Positions 151 to 10,675 of a DNA stretch of 64,000 nt are shown piece after piece. Position 1 is the first letter of the stretch. Each line of letters opens with the position of its first letter. Below the pieces are notes generated by a model. It ran no database searches. It saw only the letters and a program-made list of their open reading frames with translations, and had not been told where the DNA came from. Location of the stretch: assembly GCF_015244705.1 (NCBI RefSeq), contig NZ_JABCQF010000008.1:1-64000 (forward strand). Reading direction: 5' to 3'. A program made the translations under genes and the position numbers. Source of the stretch: Gluconobacter potus (lineage in GTDB: Bacteria; Pseudomonadota; Alphaproteobacteria; Acetobacterales; Acetobacteraceae).

Positions 151-1383
151 TTAACCCGCTTGATGCTCTGTGTGGCATAACCCGCTAGAGGCTCTCTCCC
201 ATTCTTTCATCATCTGCCGCCGCTTTTCGAACAGATCGCCCCGCCGATAAGCGGCTTCTACCTTGTCCCCAATGGCGTGGGCTAAAGCCATTTCGGCAAC
301 CTCACGCGGGTAGTGTGTTTCCTCTGCGGCCCAATCCCTGAATGTCGAGCGTAAGCCGTGGACCGTGACACCTTTTGTCCCTGCCGCATGATGCAAGGCT
401 TTGGATAGCGCCACGTCCGAGAGTGGTTTGCCCGCCTTCTGACCGGGGAATACCAGATCACCATTTTCAGGGTCGCGTAGGGTTGTGACGGCTTCTAAGA
501 TCGCCAGTGCGCTATCGGTAAGGGGAACACGGTGTTCCCTTCCCGCCTTCATACGCTCGGCGGGAATGGTCCAGACCTTCGATTGCAGGTCGATTTCATT
601 CCATGTTGCGGCCCTCACTTCGCCGGAGCGTGTTGCCGTGAGACAGACAAAACGGACTGCCTTGGCTGCGAGTCCATCGGATGCCGCAAGAGAAGCCATT
701 ACCTTGCCGATATCCTTGCGCTCAACCGCCGCATGATGCTCGACCTTCGCCACTTTGCTCGGCGGTGGGAGAATAGCATCCAGATGCCCGCGCCATCGGG
801 CGGCGTTTTCGCCCTCGCACCAGCCATGAGCCTTGGCGTACCCTAAGATACGTTCAACGCGGGACCGAAGCCGTGAGGCTGTTTCTGTCTTGCTATCCCA
901 TATTGGACGTAGGGCGTTCAGCACGTCCTCTGTGGATACCCTGCTCACCGGCCTGTCACCGAAAACTGGGAACACATGCTGCTCGAGAGAACGCCGCCAT
1001 ATCGGTTCGGCCTTCTTGTCTTTCCAACCTGATGCTTGTTCCGTGATGAAGCGCCGGGCGACCTGTTCGAACGTCAGGGTTAACGCCTGTTCCAGCTTAC
1101 GGGCCTTGTCGATTTCCTGTTTGCGGTCGAGTGGGTCTATCTTCTCTGCAAGCAACAAGCGGGCCTCACTGGCGCGTTGCCTCGCTGTCGCAAGAGGAAC
1201 GTCATAGGCAGAACCTAGGCCCATCTCTCTACGCTTGCCGGTTACGGGGCTTGTGAACCGGAATGTCCAGCCGCGTGATGTGGGGGTTGCAATCAGCCAC
1301 AGGCCCCCACCATCGCAAAGGTTGCCAGACTTCCATGTCTCGACCCTGCGAGCCGTCAGTTGATTAGGGGCTAGTCTGCTCAT
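151..1383 (-). CDS. Tyrosine-type site-specific integrase (P4/DUF4102 family)
   Basis: This 410-residue protein has the layout of P4-like island integrases. An N-terminal DUF4102 arm-binding domain spans about residues 1-95, a SAM-like core-binding domain about 100-200, and a C-terminal catalytic domain about 220-400. The catalytic set is visible: R252 (TATRSGE), K279, H342 and R345 (HGLRSTF), H369 (LAH) and nucleophile Y379 (AAYRRGD). The length is normal for the family and the frame is intact, so the enzyme may be active. Such integrases usually insert elements into the 3' end of tRNA genes, and a tRNA-Val remnant lies 2.5 kb upstream. A G-rich repeat lies just before the start codon. The other end of the element is not visible. 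Confidence 0.93.
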   Translation of the reverse strand: MSRLAPNQLTARRVETWKSGNLCDGGGLWLIATPTSRGWTFRFTSPVTGKRREMGLGSAYDVPLATARQRASEARLLLAEKIDPLDRKQEIDKARKLEQALTLTFEQVARRFITEQASGWKDKKAEPIWRRSLEQHVFPVFGDRPVSRVSTEDVLNALRPIWDSKTETASRLRSRVERILGYAKAHGWCEGENAARWRGHLDAILPPPSKVAKVEHHAAVERKDIGKVMASLAASDGLAAKAVRFVCLTATRSGEVRAATWNEIDLQSKVWTIPAERMKAGREHRVPLTDSALAILEAVTTLRDPENGDLVFPGQKAGKPLSDVALSKALHHAAGTKGVTVHGLRSTFRDWAAEETHYPREVAEMALAHAIGDKVEAAYRRGDLFEKRRQMMKEWERASSGLCHTEHQAG

Positions 1384-4699: not shown

Positions 4700-7678
4700 A
4701 TGATTCCTTATCGACGCAGGGAACTGCTTTTGTGCGCTTCCATCCTCGCAACAGGGCTGGGAATCTCTGCGAAAGCAGAAGCCCAGACTGCGACCAGTAC
4801 GCATCATCGTGCGTCCTCACACGGTGCGTCTGTTCTTAAAAAGAGCGCGACTAAAACTGCCAGCAAAACTGAAGCCGGACCGTCTGTAACGGCTGCTACA
4901 ACAGCTCCTTCTACCGTGGCAGCGAGGGCACCTGCCCCCGCCTTTACAGCTCAGAACCGTCATAATCGCGCTCTTGACTCCATTGAAACCGGGCGTGCGG
5001 AAACGGTGGTTGTGACGGGATCTGCACTGAGCACCTCCAACAACCAGAACGCCAATCCGGTGCAGATCATAAGCAGCAAGCAGATCGAACAGACAGGAGC
5101 CACCACGCTTGGTGACTATCTGCAACGTCTGCCTTCGATCGGCTCGCAAGGAACGACGAACAGTCAGACCAACGGTACGGATGGTGTCAGTTGCACGGAT
5201 ATTCGTAATCTGGGTTACCAGCGTGTTCTGGTGCTGGTTGATGGCAAGCGTGCTGCCATTAACGGTGAGTCCAGCTGTTTCGACATGAACACCATCAATA
5301 TCCATCAGGTGGCCAGTGTTGAAATCCTGAAGGATGGTGGCTCTGAACTGTATGGTGCCGATGCTGTTTCCGGCGTCATCAACATCAAGCTGAAGCATAA
5401 CCTGAGCGACGGTAACATTACGGTCCGTGGTGGCATCACTGATGTGGGTGACGGCCAGACCGGCATGATCTCCGGCTACAAGGGCTGGAATTTTGATCAT
5501 GGCAAGGGCAATGTTACGGTTTCCGGCTCTTACATGACACAGAGCGGCATCAAGCAGAAAAATCGCTCCTGGGCGACGCCTGTCCAGCAGAATGACTCCT
5601 CCGATGCTTCTGCCCTTACCTATGGCTCAGGTTATCCGACGGCAGGCCGTTTCATCGGTGCGACCAGCGGCAACGACATGATCGCGAACAGCAACGGGAC
5701 GCTAAGTCCATTTACGAGCGCGGATCGCTACAACTACGGCAACGACCAGTCCCTGACGAACTCCCTTCAGGACGCGACGCTGTCATTCGATGCGCATTAT
5801 GACATCAACAGTCATTTTACGCCGTACCTGAACTTCAATTATAGTCACCGTAATTCGTCGACCACGATGGCGCCGGAGCCAGTATCGGGCAGTATCTATC
5901 CGTCCACATTGCCTACAACGCTTTATATTCCGGCAAACGACCCGTACAATACGTCTGGTGAAGACCAGTACATGTACAAGCGCATGGGCGAGTGGGGTGA
6001 CCGCCGCACTGAAACTGCCTCTGATACCTATACTGGCATTGCCGGTGTCAAGGGTGAAATCACCCACGGCTGGAACTACGACCTGTCCTACACCTATGGC
6101 TGGAACCAGGTTTCAAACCAGGTCGAGGGCGTAGGAAATTACACCAAGCTTCTGGAAACATACGGCCTGCGTCAGGTTACGCCAGGTGATTCCAGCAGTG
6201 CGCTTGTCTACGATCCGTCTGTCTGCAATGCATCCGCGGGATGTGTGCTGTCCAACCCGTATGAGAAGCTTTCTTCGGCAGCTGCGGCCTATTCCAACTA
6301 CACCACGCATGAGAACTACTACTACCAGATGCGTGACCTGAACCTGCGTATTAACAACAACCATGTTGTTCACATGCCGTGGGCGAATGGTGGCGATCTC
6401 GGTATCGCGCTGGGTATGGAACACCGTGGCGAACAACTCGCCTATCATCCGGATCCGCTGGTCGAAGCCGGTGAGACGCTGACCAACTCCGCCTCCTACA
6501 CGGGTGGCGGGTTCAACGTCACGGAAGGGTATCTCGAAGGCAAGGCTACGCTGCTGCATAATGCGTTCCTCGCGAAGGATCTGACGATTGACGGTCAGGG
6601 CCGGTATTCGTCCTACAACACGTTCGGCGGCACAAAGAACTGGAAGGTCTCCATCAACTGGGCGCCGATTCAGGACATCCGCTTCCGTGCAACACTTGGC
6701 ACATCCTACCGTCAGCCGAATGTGTATGAACTGTATGGTGGCCAGTCTCTCGGCTATGCATCAGCGACGGATCCCTGTGACTCCGTGCAGGCGGCCACCT
6801 ATGGCGCCAAGGCTGCGACCGTAGCCGCAAACTGTGCCAAGCAGGGCATCAACACGTCCACATTCAGTTCCACCTATTCCGGCCAGACCCCGACCATTTA
6901 TGGTGGTAGCAGCACCCTCAAACCTGAGACGGGTCGGACCTATACCTTTGGTACGGTGATTACCCCGCGCTGGATTCCGGGTCTCTCGGCATCTGTCGAA
7001 TACTGGCACTACACGCTCAAGAACATGATCTCATACCTGCCTACGCAGTACATCATGGATGAGTGCTACACGGGAGCTGATACATCGTATTGCAGTGATA
7101 TCACGCGCAATTCGAGCACGGGTCAGCTCAACTCCGTTTCGGCGTTGTACCAGAATATCGGCGGCCTGAAGACAAGCGGTATCGACTTCGACCTCGATTA
7201 CCGTATCCGCATCACATCTCATGACGTGCTGACGCTGTCCAACAACTTCCAGCAGCTCGTCAGCTATCTTCAGCAGTATGAGCCCGGTGGTTCATGGTAC
7301 AACTATGCCGGACGCATGCTTTATCAATCCGGTTACGGTATGCCGCGTGTCCGTGACTATGCCACGGTTGGCTGGCAGCATGGCGCTATCGGCTTCACCT
7401 ACATGATGAACTATATCGGTGGCATGCGCTGGAACGACGGCACCGAGGATCTGACACGTGCCAACGGCTACGGTCGTACCAGCACCCCGGGGATCTTCTC
7501 CCACGATGTGACGGTAACGTATCGTTGGAACCGCTGGAACTTCCAGGGTGGCGTGAACAATCTCCTCGACAAGAAGCCACCTTTCGTTGCCAGCGCAACG
7601 GATAACAGCGCTTCTGCGCTGTATGGTAGTCTTTATATGGGGCGTTACGTCTTCCTGCAGGCTGGCGTGAATTTCTGA
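4700..7678 (+). CDS. TonB-dependent outer membrane receptor
   Basis: A large outer-membrane beta-barrel receptor that would import a bulky nutrient, such as a siderophore or glycan, using TonB energy. After a basic n-region (YRRRE) comes a hydrophobic signal peptide ending AKAEA-Q, then a low-complexity Ala/Thr linker. The plug domain follows with ETVVVTGSA, a typical TonB-box-like and plug start, and RVLVLVDGKR. The barrel ends in the terminal phenylalanine (QAGVNF) needed for Bam insertion. The frame is open from an ATG at 4,631, but the ATG at 4,700 places the signal peptide correctly, so I prefer it; neither has a strong ribosome-binding site. Length is about 992 residues. The substrate cannot be told. 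A terminator follows directly. Confidence 0.93.
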   Translation: MIPYRRRELLLCASILATGLGISAKAEAQTATSTHHRASSHGASVLKKSATKTASKTEAGPSVTAATTAPSTVAARAPAPAFTAQNRHNRALDSIETGRAETVVVTGSALSTSNNQNANPVQIISSKQIEQTGATTLGDYLQRLPSIGSQGTTNSQTNGTDGVSCTDIRNLGYQRVLVLVDGKRAAINGESSCFDMNTINIHQVASVEILKDGGSELYGADAVSGVINIKLKHNLSDGNITVRGGITDVGDGQTGMISGYKGWNFDHGKGNVTVSGSYMTQSGIKQKNRSWATPVQQNDSSDASALTYGSGYPTAGRFIGATSGNDMIANSNGTLSPFTSADRYNYGNDQSLTNSLQDATLSFDAHYDINSHFTPYLNFNYSHRNSSTTMAPEPVSGSIYPSTLPTTLYIPANDPYNTSGEDQYMYKRMGEWGDRRTETASDTYTGIAGVKGEITHGWNYDLSYTYGWNQVSNQVEGVGNYTKLLETYGLRQVTPGDSSSALVYDPSVCNASAGCVLSNPYEKLSSAAAAYSNYTTHENYYYQMRDLNLRINNNHVVHMPWANGGDLGIALGMEHRGEQLAYHPDPLVEAGETLTNSASYTGGGFNVTEGYLEGKATLLHNAFLAKDLTIDGQGRYSSYNTFGGTKNWKVSINWAPIQDIRFRATLGTSYRQPNVYELYGGQSLGYASATDPCDSVQAATYGAKAATVAANCAKQGINTSTFSSTYSGQTPTIYGGSSTLKPETGRTYTFGTVITPRWIPGLSASVEYWHYTLKNMISYLPTQYIMDECYTGADTSYCSDITRNSSTGQLNSVSALYQNIGGLKTSGIDFDLDYRIRITSHDVLTLSNNFQQLVSYLQQYEPGGSWYNYAGRMLYQSGYGMPRVRDYATVGWQHGAIGFTYMMNYIGGMRWNDGTEDLTRANGYGRTSTPGIFSHDVTVTYRWNRWNFQGGVNNLLDKKPPFVASATDNSASALYGSLYMGRYVFLQAGVNF

Positions 7679-8366: not shown

Positions 8367-8705
8367 TTAATTATCCAGACTGAAATTTACCGTTGTCTGG
8401 TGATGATGCTCCACCACGGGAACGCCTTTTACGGTCGCTGGGGCATATCGCTGTCGCCGACAGTGATCGAGTGCACTTGCGTTGAATTCAGGGTTTGTAC
8501 TGGAAACCACCTGACAGTTCACCGTATGCCCGGTTTTATCAATATCAAACATCATCTTGACCTGGCCTGTGGCATTTTCCCTGACCAGTTTTTCCGGATA
8601 CACAGGTCCGTTTTTCATAACCTGCGGAGGATTGGATTTCGTTTCTTGGCCGCAGGCTACGCCTGGCGCTGCCAATACAGCTATCAACAATAGAAAATGC
8701 TTCAA
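8367..8705 (-). CDS. Secreted stand-alone TonB C-terminal-domain protein
   Basis: A 112-residue protein with a signal peptide (KHFLLLIAVLAAPGVACG) followed by one TonB C-terminal-like domain. The PVYPEKLVRENATGQVKMMFDID segment and SALDHCRRQRYAPAT fit the TonB family repeat. It lacks the proline-rich spacer of a classical TonB, and the N-terminal segment looks cleavable rather than a stable anchor, so it may be a periplasmic protein rather than an energy transducer. Two cysteines in the mature part could form a disulfide. It lies 0.7 kb from the TonB-dependent receptor, on the opposite strand. Confidence 0.75.
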   Translation of the reverse strand: MKHFLLLIAVLAAPGVACGQETKSNPPQVMKNGPVYPEKLVRENATGQVKMMFDIDKTGHTVNCQVVSSTNPEFNASALDHCRRQRYAPATVKGVPVVEHHHQTTVNFSLDN

Positions 8706-8805: not shown

Positions 8806-9000
8806 TCAGTGGCGCGTCCATGGCGGAAGAAACCTGCCCAGAGGCCGAATGCGATATTGGTGGACCTTTCCTCGCCGAGAAGGCGGATTCAGCGGGCGCT
8901 TTTCGTCATTCCGGGGATCATTCGCGTCGTATGGTTCTGGATCGCGACGCTCTGAAGGCGGAATGGGCTTCGTGCTGCGCTCATCAACTGGAATGGACAT
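8806..9000 (-). CDS. Small proline-rich hypothetical protein A
   Basis: The product has 64 residues and is polar and proline-rich (KPIPPSERRDPEPY, DANDPRNDEKRPLNPPS), with no predicted helix or membrane segment, so it is probably disordered. The open frame reaches a TTG at 9,060, but that start would lie inside the preceding terminator. AGGAGG with good spacing before the ATG at 9,000 is much better. It is the last of three tiny genes of similar character on this strand. Function unknown. Confidence 0.55.
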   Translation of the reverse strand: MSIPVDERSTKPIPPSERRDPEPYDANDPRNDEKRPLNPPSRRGKVHQYRIRPLGRFLPPWTRH

Positions 9001-9058
9001 GATCTGCCCTCCTGCAAAACGATTCAAGCGTTCTGCAAGCTCGGGGTTCATCTGAGAC

Positions 9059-9083
9059 AAAAAGAAACCCGGCTTGCACCGGG
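9059..9083 (-). terminator. Terminator after small protein B
   Basis: On the minus strand CCCGG-TGCAAG-CCGGG is followed by TTTCTTTTT. The hairpin begins 6 bases after the stop codon of the 49-residue frame. The same T tract follows two neighbouring genes. Confidence 0.75.
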
Positions 9084-9089
9084 CTCCTT

Positions 9090-9239
9090 TCAGTTCATCC
9101 GATTGGGAGGTTCCGGCATGGGTGGAGGATCTTCACCCGGTGGCGGATATGGATTGGGCTTTGGCGGGTCAGGTGGCATTGGTGGCGTGGGATTAGGCAA
9201 CTCACTGGCACTTTGAGGGCAGAGCATCATCATCTCCAT
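9090..9239 (-). CDS. Tiny proline-rich protein B (49 residues)
   Basis: This short frame has about 20 prolines, with runs such as PNPTPPMPPDPPKPNPYPPP, and would be fully disordered. It has several ATG codons in a row; GGAG overlaps the first codons and would suit the ATG at 9,227 best. A good terminator directly follows the stop, which supports a real transcription unit. There is no recognisable family. It could be a periplasmic spacer-like peptide or a non-functional frame. Confidence 0.42.
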   Translation of the reverse strand: MEMMMLCPQSASELPNPTPPMPPDPPKPNPYPPPGEDPPPMPEPPNRMN

Positions 9240-9292
9240 TGCAGGGGTGACAATGCTTCAAAGCTGTTTTGGAACGGCGGTTTGCTCGCAGC

Positions 9293-9312
9293 AAAAAGAA
9301 AGCCGGCCGGCT
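9293..9312 (-). terminator. Terminator after small protein C
   Basis: On the minus strand AGCCGGCCGGCT (AGCC stem, GGCC loop, GGCT) is followed by TTTCTTTTT. It lies 16 bases past the stop codon of the 55-residue frame. Confidence 0.6.
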
Positions 9313-9328
9313 GCCCTGTTTTGGACGC

Positions 9329-9496
9329 TCAAGTCCCTTTCGCGGGATCATAGTCCTTTTCAACCTCCTCATCTTCTTCCGGAGGCTCGTCTATGATCGG
9401 GCTCTTGTCGGGATAGGGATCGAAAGGCTCTCTTTCGCTCGGAGAACCGGGAGCTTTTGTCGGATTGATGGGCGTGTTGCCGGATTGAGCGAACAT
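9329..9496 (-). CDS. Tiny acidic proline-rich protein C (55 residues)
   Basis: The frame starts at an ATG with AGGAGG 7 bases upstream, a strong ribosome-binding site. The product is Pro/Glu/Asp-rich (EPFDPYPDKSPIIDEPPEEDEE) and probably disordered, with no signal peptide. It shares composition and a DPxPYD-like stretch with protein A, and both are followed or preceded by near-identical terminators. A 66-residue frame overlapping it in another register lacks a ribosome-binding site and is rejected. Function unknown. Confidence 0.55.
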   Translation of the reverse strand: MFAQSGNTPINPTKAPGSPSEREPFDPYPDKSPIIDEPPEEDEEVEKDYDPAKGT

Positions 9497-9555
9497 GGTC
9501 GCCTCCTGTTGTCCAGCGATTCAAATCCCTACCCAGTGGCTGGTTCGATATACAC

Positions 9556-9580
9556 AAAAAGAAACCCAATCAGCGTCGGG
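9556..9580 (-). terminator. Terminator after the Rieske oxygenase gene
   Basis: On the minus strand CCCGA-CGCTGA-TTGGG (one G-U pair) is followed by TTTCTTTTT. It lies 4 bases beyond the oxygenase stop codon. Confidence 0.65.
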
Positions 9581-9583
9581 CTG

Positions 9584-10675
9584 TCAGTCAGCCGAACTGG
9601 TACGAAGATGTTCCTCTTCAAGGATCAGTCTTTCGATTCTTCTGCGCACATGAATCGCTTCTGCATCCGTCACGAAGTTGGGCTCATCGCAGGCTCGTGT
9701 CTGATCGAGGCAGGGTTCAATGACATTGAGAACACGTACGTCCTCGGCAATCACCTCCCTGTTCCGGCTGGCATACTGTTCCGAAATGTCTTCGGAACTC
9801 ATGGCAAAATCACGTAGGATGGCGAAATGATAATGCGTGGTTGTATCCGTTTCCGGAGTAATTCCATGAAGGAACGCCAGTTGACCCGTACTGTTCTGCA
9901 CATGCCCCTCTTCGTCACAGGAAACGATTTCAGATCCGGCTGCCACGACCAGTGAAACTCCAAACAGTTCTGCCCGGCTCCTGATCCCCATGGTGCTTCC
10001 AAGCTTGGGAAAGAAGGCGGTCATGGCATCTGGCGTGGGAAAAGCTTTCAGGGGATGGTGAAAACAGAGGCGCGTTGGTTCTTCGATCATCGAACAGGCC
10101 TTTGCCGGACCATCCTCACAGCTCCGAATGCCCAGGCTTGCAGGGTGCGTGAAGCTGATATGCGACTGGTCGAACAGGTTCTCCAGCACGATCTGGGACC
10201 GCGCCTCAACATGGCAGGTGCCTGTTCCGAACAGGAGTTTCTCTGTGCCATGCGAAAAAAGGGAAGCCGTGTCCGGCAGGCGGTTCATGTCTGCGGGTGT
10301 TTCCAGATCCGCCCAGATCCAGACGAACGGTTTCTGTTCGACGACAGGGAAAGACTTCAGATCCATGGCTTTGGGAATATGCTTCTGAAAGGGGAGACTG
10401 ACGCACTGGCCTGATGTCTCAAAAACCGCCCCATGATAGGGGCAGATCAGGTGTTCCCCGTCCTGATGCTCTGCGCATAGTGGCATCTGACGGTGTGGGC
10501 ACAGGGCTTTCAATGCCTGCACGTCCCCGCCTGAAGTCCGCAGCAACAGAATATCCTGCCCAAGCAACCGTCGTCTCAGAGGGCTACTGGTGATCTCCGA
10601 ACTCCAGCCGGCAATGTACCACTGCTGGCACGGATAGGGCTGTGTAACGGCGGAAAATGGATAGACCGGCATCAT
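9584..10675 (-). CDS. Rieske non-heme iron oxygenase, alpha subunit-like (VanA-type)
   Basis: This 363-residue ring-hydroxylating or demethylating oxygenase has an N-terminal Rieske [2Fe-2S] domain. Its ligands are C59/H61 (CPHRQMP) and C78/H81 (CPYHG). The C-terminal catalytic domain contains ENLFDQSHISFTH, in which H172 and H177 fit the mononuclear iron site and D169 the electron bridge. The length and the absence of a beta subunit fit the one-component vanillate/phthalate-type group. Neither a reductase nor a ferredoxin gene is adjacent, so electrons must come from elsewhere. The substrate is unknown. GGGAG lies about 12 bases before the start. It is divergent from a small gene on the plus strand. 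Confidence 0.88.
   Translation of the reverse strand: MMPVYPFSAVTQPYPCQQWYIAGWSSEITSSPLRRRLLGQDILLLRTSGGDVQALKALCPHRQMPLCAEHQDGEHLICPYHGAVFETSGQCVSLPFQKHIPKAMDLKSFPVVEQKPFVWIWADLETPADMNRLPDTASLFSHGTEKLLFGTGTCHVEARSQIVLENLFDQSHISFTHPASLGIRSCEDGPAKACSMIEEPTRLCFHHPLKAFPTPDAMTAFFPKLGSTMGIRSRAELFGVSLVVAAGSEIVSCDEEGHVQNSTGQLAFLHGITPETDTTTHYHFAILRDFAMSSEDISEQYASRNREVIAEDVRVLNVIEPCLDQTRACDEPNFVTDAEAIHVRRRIERLILEEEHLRTSSAD

Follow-up and report, generated by a model that had tools for sequence, protein, structure and literature searches.

The first 64,000 nucleotides of the Gluconobacter potus contig NZ_JABCQF010000008.1, the whole stretch of DNA that was analysed and hereafter called the window, contain three very small genes, A, B and C, between a gene for a Rieske/VanA_C oxygenase and a gene for a TonB_C-domain protein (Table 1). 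Same-strand frames of 64, 49 and 55 residues had been proposed in a preliminary description made from the sequence, and all three are present, on the minus strand. The two strong AGGAGG sites given in that description were likewise recovered, as CAGGAGG in front of genes C and A; the Shine-Dalgarno region of gene B reads ATGGAGATGATGATG, which leaves its exact start uncertain. All three products had been described as rich in proline, aspartate and glutamate, which is true of the acidic and proline-rich C and, for proline, of B, whereas A is basic (14 lysine and arginine residues against 9 aspartate and glutamate residues). Other window neighbours that were searched include LysR, TonB receptor and glyoxalase genes.

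Table 1. Genes, leader elements and hairpins at the A-B-C locus, with neighbouring genes; positions are those of the window.
Feature	Position	Strand	Description
Gene A	8806..9000	-	64 aa; ATG at 9000; conserved start MSIP..D and basic end HxYRIRPLGRF..PWT
Gene B	9090..9239	-	ATG at 9239; 45-49 aa according to the start chosen; 20 Pro
Gene C	9329..9496	-	ATG at 9496, stop at 9329; 55 aa; acidic, Pro-rich; core NPTKAPGSPSEREPFDPYPDKSPIIDEPPEE
Leader of A	9023..9065	-	TCTTTT-N10-GAACC-N16-CTTGAA; aligned upstream regions, genome pattern search
Leader of B	9257..9299	-	TCTTTT-N10-AAACC-N16-TTTGAA; aligned upstream regions, genome pattern search
Leader of C	9520..9562	-	TCTTTT-N10-GAACC-N16-TTTGAA; aligned upstream regions, genome pattern search
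Hairpin 5' of T tract	9066..9085	-	AGCCCGGT-GCAA-GCCGGGTT; likely B terminator; z -3.46
Hairpin between C and B	9301..9312	-	weak, 4 pairs; z +0.50
Hairpin at end of Rieske-type gene	9563..9582	-	weak, 7 pairs; z -0.28
Rieske/VanA_C oxygenase gene	9584..10675	-	upstream of C also in genomes G002 and G024
TonB_C-domain protein gene	8367..8705	-	downstream of A; G002 and G003 have related ORFs in the downstream position; relation to the window gene judged by eye
Tyrosine recombinase gene	151-1383	-	Pfam phage-integrase domains (arm, central, catalytic); G002 also has one on this side of the region

Homologs of C were found in 13 of 26 Gluconobacter genomes, the window's own included (E<=0.01), and in none of the 34 others among the 60 genomes searched. 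For B, 13 of the 26 gave a match at E<=0.1, although the weakest matches may be due to chance with so proline-rich a query; for A, 7 of the 26 did so, 6 of them at E<=4e-13. The gene order C-B-A is kept in four Gluconobacter genomes (G000, which is the window's own, G024, G002 and G003), and B-A occurs without an adjoining C in G019 and G017. Across the Acetobacteraceae, C-family genes were present in 17 of 397 genomes, belonging to 7 of 102 genera with Gluconobacter counted. No stops interrupted the strong matches, and the frames are thus conserved in related genomes, with variation in the length of C: in G024 and G002 it spans 88 codons, 33 more than the 55 codons in the window, and the copy in the G003 trio has 74.

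The substitution patterns indicate purifying selection on the reading frames, strong for B and C and weaker for A, with dN/dS ratios of 0.08-0.12 for C (three genomes), 0.04-0.36 for B (five genomes) and 0.33-0.69 for A (four genomes). In the 31 codons of the C core, compared among 11 sequences (ten canonical copies and the window copy, the trio copies of G002, G024 and G003 being left out), pS was 0.756 and pN 0.058. The two alternative frames of B and of C showed no such purifying pattern, so that codon-level selection is frame-specific for these two genes. For A, close pairs do not set the true frame apart (G000/G024: 0.69 vs 0.37 in frame +1), whereas distant pairs with G019 gave a dN/dS of 0.33-0.35 compared with at least 0.71 in the other frames; since the close pairs are uninformative, the coding status of A rests on the distant G019 pairs together with its invariant ends.

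None of the three proteins matched a known family in Pfam, NCBIfam or PHROGs, and no homology was detected for the pairs compared, A-C and B-C. AlphaFold2 models of A and C, built from shallow alignments (6 and 14 sequences), had almost no predicted secondary structure, with a mean pLDDT of 65.9 for A and 66.5 for C. The open-access literature searched yielded no paper on proline-rich small proteins of Gluconobacter and none on such proteins in connection with prophages and superinfection exclusion. Several C orthologs have a tail ending in PDAPENPTN or a near variant; in another genus (g109; loci L076, L079, L080 and L081), core and tail are encoded in separate frames with an ATGA overlap, the two being fused in most Gluconobacter. 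The window's own genome also has a fourth family member (L115, G000 C7:106000-119000, at about position 6560 of the locus), a B-type paralog of 54 aa whose leader is degenerate, and none of the 12 ORFs around this paralog had phage-locus homologs.

A T tract shared by three sites had been reported in the preliminary description as the tail of look-alike terminators. The repeat itself is real: TTTCTTTTT occurs exactly three times in the 64-kb window on both strands, once 5' of each gene, whereas 40 dinucleotide shuffles held 0.25 copies on average and never more than 2. Aligned upstream regions showed that it opens a longer leader element with the consensus TCTTTT-N10/11-RAACY-N16-nTTGAR, which is followed by a Shine-Dalgarno site and by an ATG at a nearly constant distance of 22-29 nt (20-26 nt when counted from the end of the 29-nt register in the 34 leaders that fit it). 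These 34, from a total of 39 leaders, score at least 8/10 in the register; the five others are L032, L033, L035, L037 and L040, of which L035 and L037 are strict-pattern matches nonetheless but stand further from the ATG. All 34 fitting leaders have AAC and TT.A, and in 28 the TT is followed by G; however, the patterns derive from these same genes and the register was picked by best score on those letters, and the invariant columns are therefore inflated. The first base of RAACY is G in most fitting leaders and A or C in some, and the T tract is found in 29 of the 34 (it is absent at L010, L031, L034, L038 and L041).

The terminators are less alike than had been described. Comparison of folding with that of shuffled sequences showed that only the stretch after B folds better than its shuffles, and those after the Rieske-type gene and after C do not (Table 1). 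The stretch after A gave a z of +0.69, and a scan for terminator patterns listed none there, but the B hairpin was likewise unlisted by that scan. The T tract is also part of the upstream element of each gene and is kept without a hairpin: 7 of 8 canonical C leaders have no stem of at least 5 pairs before it (L006, the eighth, has seven pairs), so that the T tract must in part, if not wholly, be assigned to the gene that follows it. No consensus pairs were found by RNAalifold in a run that covered the leaders themselves and located 30 of the 34, four anchors from other genera not being found. Retention of the leader without a preceding hairpin, together with this lack of RNA structure, makes it most likely an ECF-type promoter. 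As A and B show no detectable homology to C and yet share a leader that is position-selective, the element points to shared regulation, and the presence of one control sequence before all three genes suggests that they are switched on jointly.

Genome-wide pattern searches showed how selective the leader is. In the 3.42 Mb of the window's own genome, the strict pattern matched only the leaders of A, B and C (3 matches; 0 for the reversed control), and it matched in 15 of 26 Gluconobacter genomes, with 5 matches for the reversed control. Of 30 strict matches, 21 sit 5' of a proline-rich ORF of 25-125 codons. Another site search of the own genome returned three sites, with the leaders of A and C among them, and hence almost no further ones. 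The pattern also revealed two genes, L090 and L094, that the protein searches had not listed; because it was derived from the family itself, the independent evidence consists of its exclusiveness and of these two genes. The protein encoded at L090 (G023 C1), found through its leader alone, is B-like in its second half (hhalign probability 87) and weakly C-like in its first (hhalign probability 30). A form of the leader from other genera, searched with up to 2 mismatches, had 9 sites in 345 Acetobacteraceae genomes, of which 8 precede C-family genes and the ninth (G295, 2 mismatches) does not. We also observed two recurrent groups of matches in Gluconobacter that have no downstream proline-rich ORF (L091, L093, L098 and L099, L104). 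Taken together, it is well supported by the comparative data that the frames are coding and that their leaders are under selection.

The leader may be read by an alternative sigma factor of the host, for which an EcfG-type factor is the best candidate. The R. etli EcfG1 promoter is given as GGAAC-N16-CGTT in PMC3892343. The leader agrees with its GAAC -35 core and 16-nt spacing, AAC and TT being present in all 34 fitted of the 39 leaders, with the register chosen on these letters; the -10 CGTT is absent, with TT alone in register, mostly followed by GA. The window's own genome encodes NepR, a PhyR_sigma2-plus-receiver protein and two tandem ECF sigma factors at one general-stress-type locus (L123, G000 C4). 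Canonical EcfG sites show no enrichment here (32 matches vs 42 for the reversed control), and a search near nine sigma-like loci with the loose leader pattern returned no more than two matches, which overlap each other at L128 and score below the family cut-off. Sites almost confined to one gene family would be odd for a general stress sigma factor, and with CGTT lacking, no enrichment of the canonical pattern and few further sites, we regard EcfG as a candidate and not as a result. A sigma-70 promoter was considered and rejected, -10 regions of G. oxydans reading nAtnnn (PMC5756330), and our search of the open-access literature for ECF sigma factors in acetic acid bacteria returned no related paper.

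Cassettes of this set are spread across the genus; the trio represents one of their arrangements, and some members lie in prophages. B-type genes were found in prophage-like regions at eight loci in seven genomes (G017, G025 with two, G010, G015, G021, G003 and G013), and two IMG/VR contigs carry A, with or without B. In five prophage-like test loci, 13/21, 12/21, 14/20, 5/9 and 12/21 ORFs had homologs in reference phage loci, for which PHROGs confirmed an integrase, a repressor, a replication initiator and a RecE-like exonuclease; eight other test loci had 0 or 1 such ORF, and around the G003 trio 0 of 8 ORFs had homologs in phage loci. Within the prophages, B and sometimes A follow the repressor, and in three loci a BstA or RhuM gene separates the repressor from B. 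Proteins encoded in this interval include BstA (E 1.8e-109), two RhuM proteins that scored as the candidate defence family PDC-S05, a P63C protein and an acyltransferase, and 6 of the 10 slot proteins searched had no Pfam match; in the G015 prophage (L135 4381-6652), a BstA-type gene and one more ORF lie between a cI-like repressor and the B cassette. A separate short B-type gene in G007 (L142 6075-6661) stands beside an integrase-like ORF with no further phage homologs and is perhaps a phage remnant; this ORF accounts for the one match among the eight other test loci. C was seen on chromosomes only.

Our best reading is that A, B and C belong to a family of cassettes for disordered microproteins that are probably stress-induced and are shared with prophages. 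Codon-level conservation, the AlphaFold2 models of A and C and hairpins between units, one of them strong, bear out the tandem array of tiny disordered products given in the preliminary description; its single-gene transcripts are putative. Stated in full, namely that unrelated disordered microprotein cassettes share a common ECF-type promoter under EcfG stress control and that prophages share B and A, this reading has in our estimate a probability of about 0.5. Each cassette would comprise the T tract, an ECF-sigma-type promoter (RAACY-N16-nTTGAR), a short Shine-Dalgarno leader, the frame and sometimes an intrinsic terminator. The EcfG-type sigma factor of the host general stress response would read the leader, so that under stress all three proteins would be made together; the B and A copies of prophages, close to abortive-infection genes, would be accessory genes of the moron kind, and a lysogen would therefore gain extra doses. 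As for protein function, we infer that these fold-less proteins may act by binding a partner via a conserved short motif, for which FDPYPDKSP in C, PNPYPPPGE..PPPMQEPP in B and YRIRPLGRF..PWT in A are candidates. Both the EcfG control and the partner binding are predictions from sequence. The trio itself is a chromosomal cassette set with a shared ECF-like promoter element and is related to the moron-like cargo of Gluconobacter prophages.

The strongest alternative, which we nevertheless consider unlikely, is that the cassettes are primarily phage accessory genes, that is, morons for defence or superinfection exclusion, with the trio and canonical C being domesticated copies and the leader a lysogeny promoter. 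The post-repressor position of B and A, with BstA or RhuM intervening in three loci, fits this proposal. In PMC8585504, the region downstream of cI is called a hotspot of mosaic diversity, in which bstA and, in lambda, rexAB are located. Against it, C adjoins the same cluster of glycosyltransferase, NodS-like methyltransferase and PIG-L deacetylase genes in 9 of 10 non-trio loci (L060 being the exception), it was unconfirmed in IMG/VR with a C profile, and a tblastn search of plasmid records with one C ortholog gave no match. INPHARED phage records, queried with a single A protein of the phage type, also returned no match, and A, B and C had no match among PADLOC defence families at E<=0.01. 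The B profile confirmed nothing in IMG/VR either, a weak result because that query is low in complexity.

Still less probable is an origin of the shared leaders as a by-product of cassette copying or recombination at terminators, with no common regulation behind them. Near-identical hairpins flank the prophage cassettes and would help such recombination; however, the 16-nt spacer varies between families while AAC and TT.A, on which the register was chosen, stay constant, and the T tract is kept before most canonical C genes in the absence of a hairpin. We give little credence to the idea that the transcripts are small regulatory RNAs or attenuator leader peptides with the frames secondary, as the short units, hairpins and frames rich in proline codons might suggest, given the frame-specific purifying selection on B and C, the leader free of conserved pairing and, for attenuation, the absence of a fixed target, B and A preceding different genes in different genomes. 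Chance ORFs, for which small size and nothing more would speak, can be dismissed on the intact homologs in several species and the low dN/dS.

Under the reading of stress-induced cassettes shared with prophages, three overlooked tiny frames become protein families that are conserved and for which a single regulator is predicted, and their leader is a sequence signature that located further family members. If true, unrelated disordered microproteins have been gathered under one promoter type by a host and its prophages, and an easy genetic test of this is possible in an industrially used genus. A more far-reaching version, which we offer tentatively and hold to be clearly less probable than the reading above, is that in acetic acid bacteria a stress sigma factor of the host controls a near-exclusive regulon of non-homologous, disordered, proline-rich microproteins, and that temperate phages have adopted both promoter and microproteins as lysogeny cargo near abortive-infection genes, linking the expression of phage accessory genes to host stress.

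Among known systems, the leaders resemble EcfG promoters in their GAAC core and in the identical spacing to a TT pair, and differ in that the first G of GGAAC is not fixed, nnTTGA replaces CGTT and most carry the extra upstream T tract. The cassettes resemble phage morons and lysogenic-conversion genes in being small gene units with a promoter-like leader and, in part, a terminator; in the window, the leader is conserved and a strong hairpin follows B alone. Location inside a phage genome, which is typical of morons, applies to the B and A relatives and not to the window trio, around which no prophage was recognised. Those relatives occupy the slot downstream of cI, as bstA and rexAB do, some of them together with BstA or RhuM, but the proteins here have about 45-64 aa and lack any known domain, the same leader precedes relatives on chromosomes, and a defence role for A, B or C is putative. 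BstA itself, a BstA-type gene lying between repressor and B in the G015 prophage, is a large protein (its PADLOC profile has 292 positions) to which A and B show no match.
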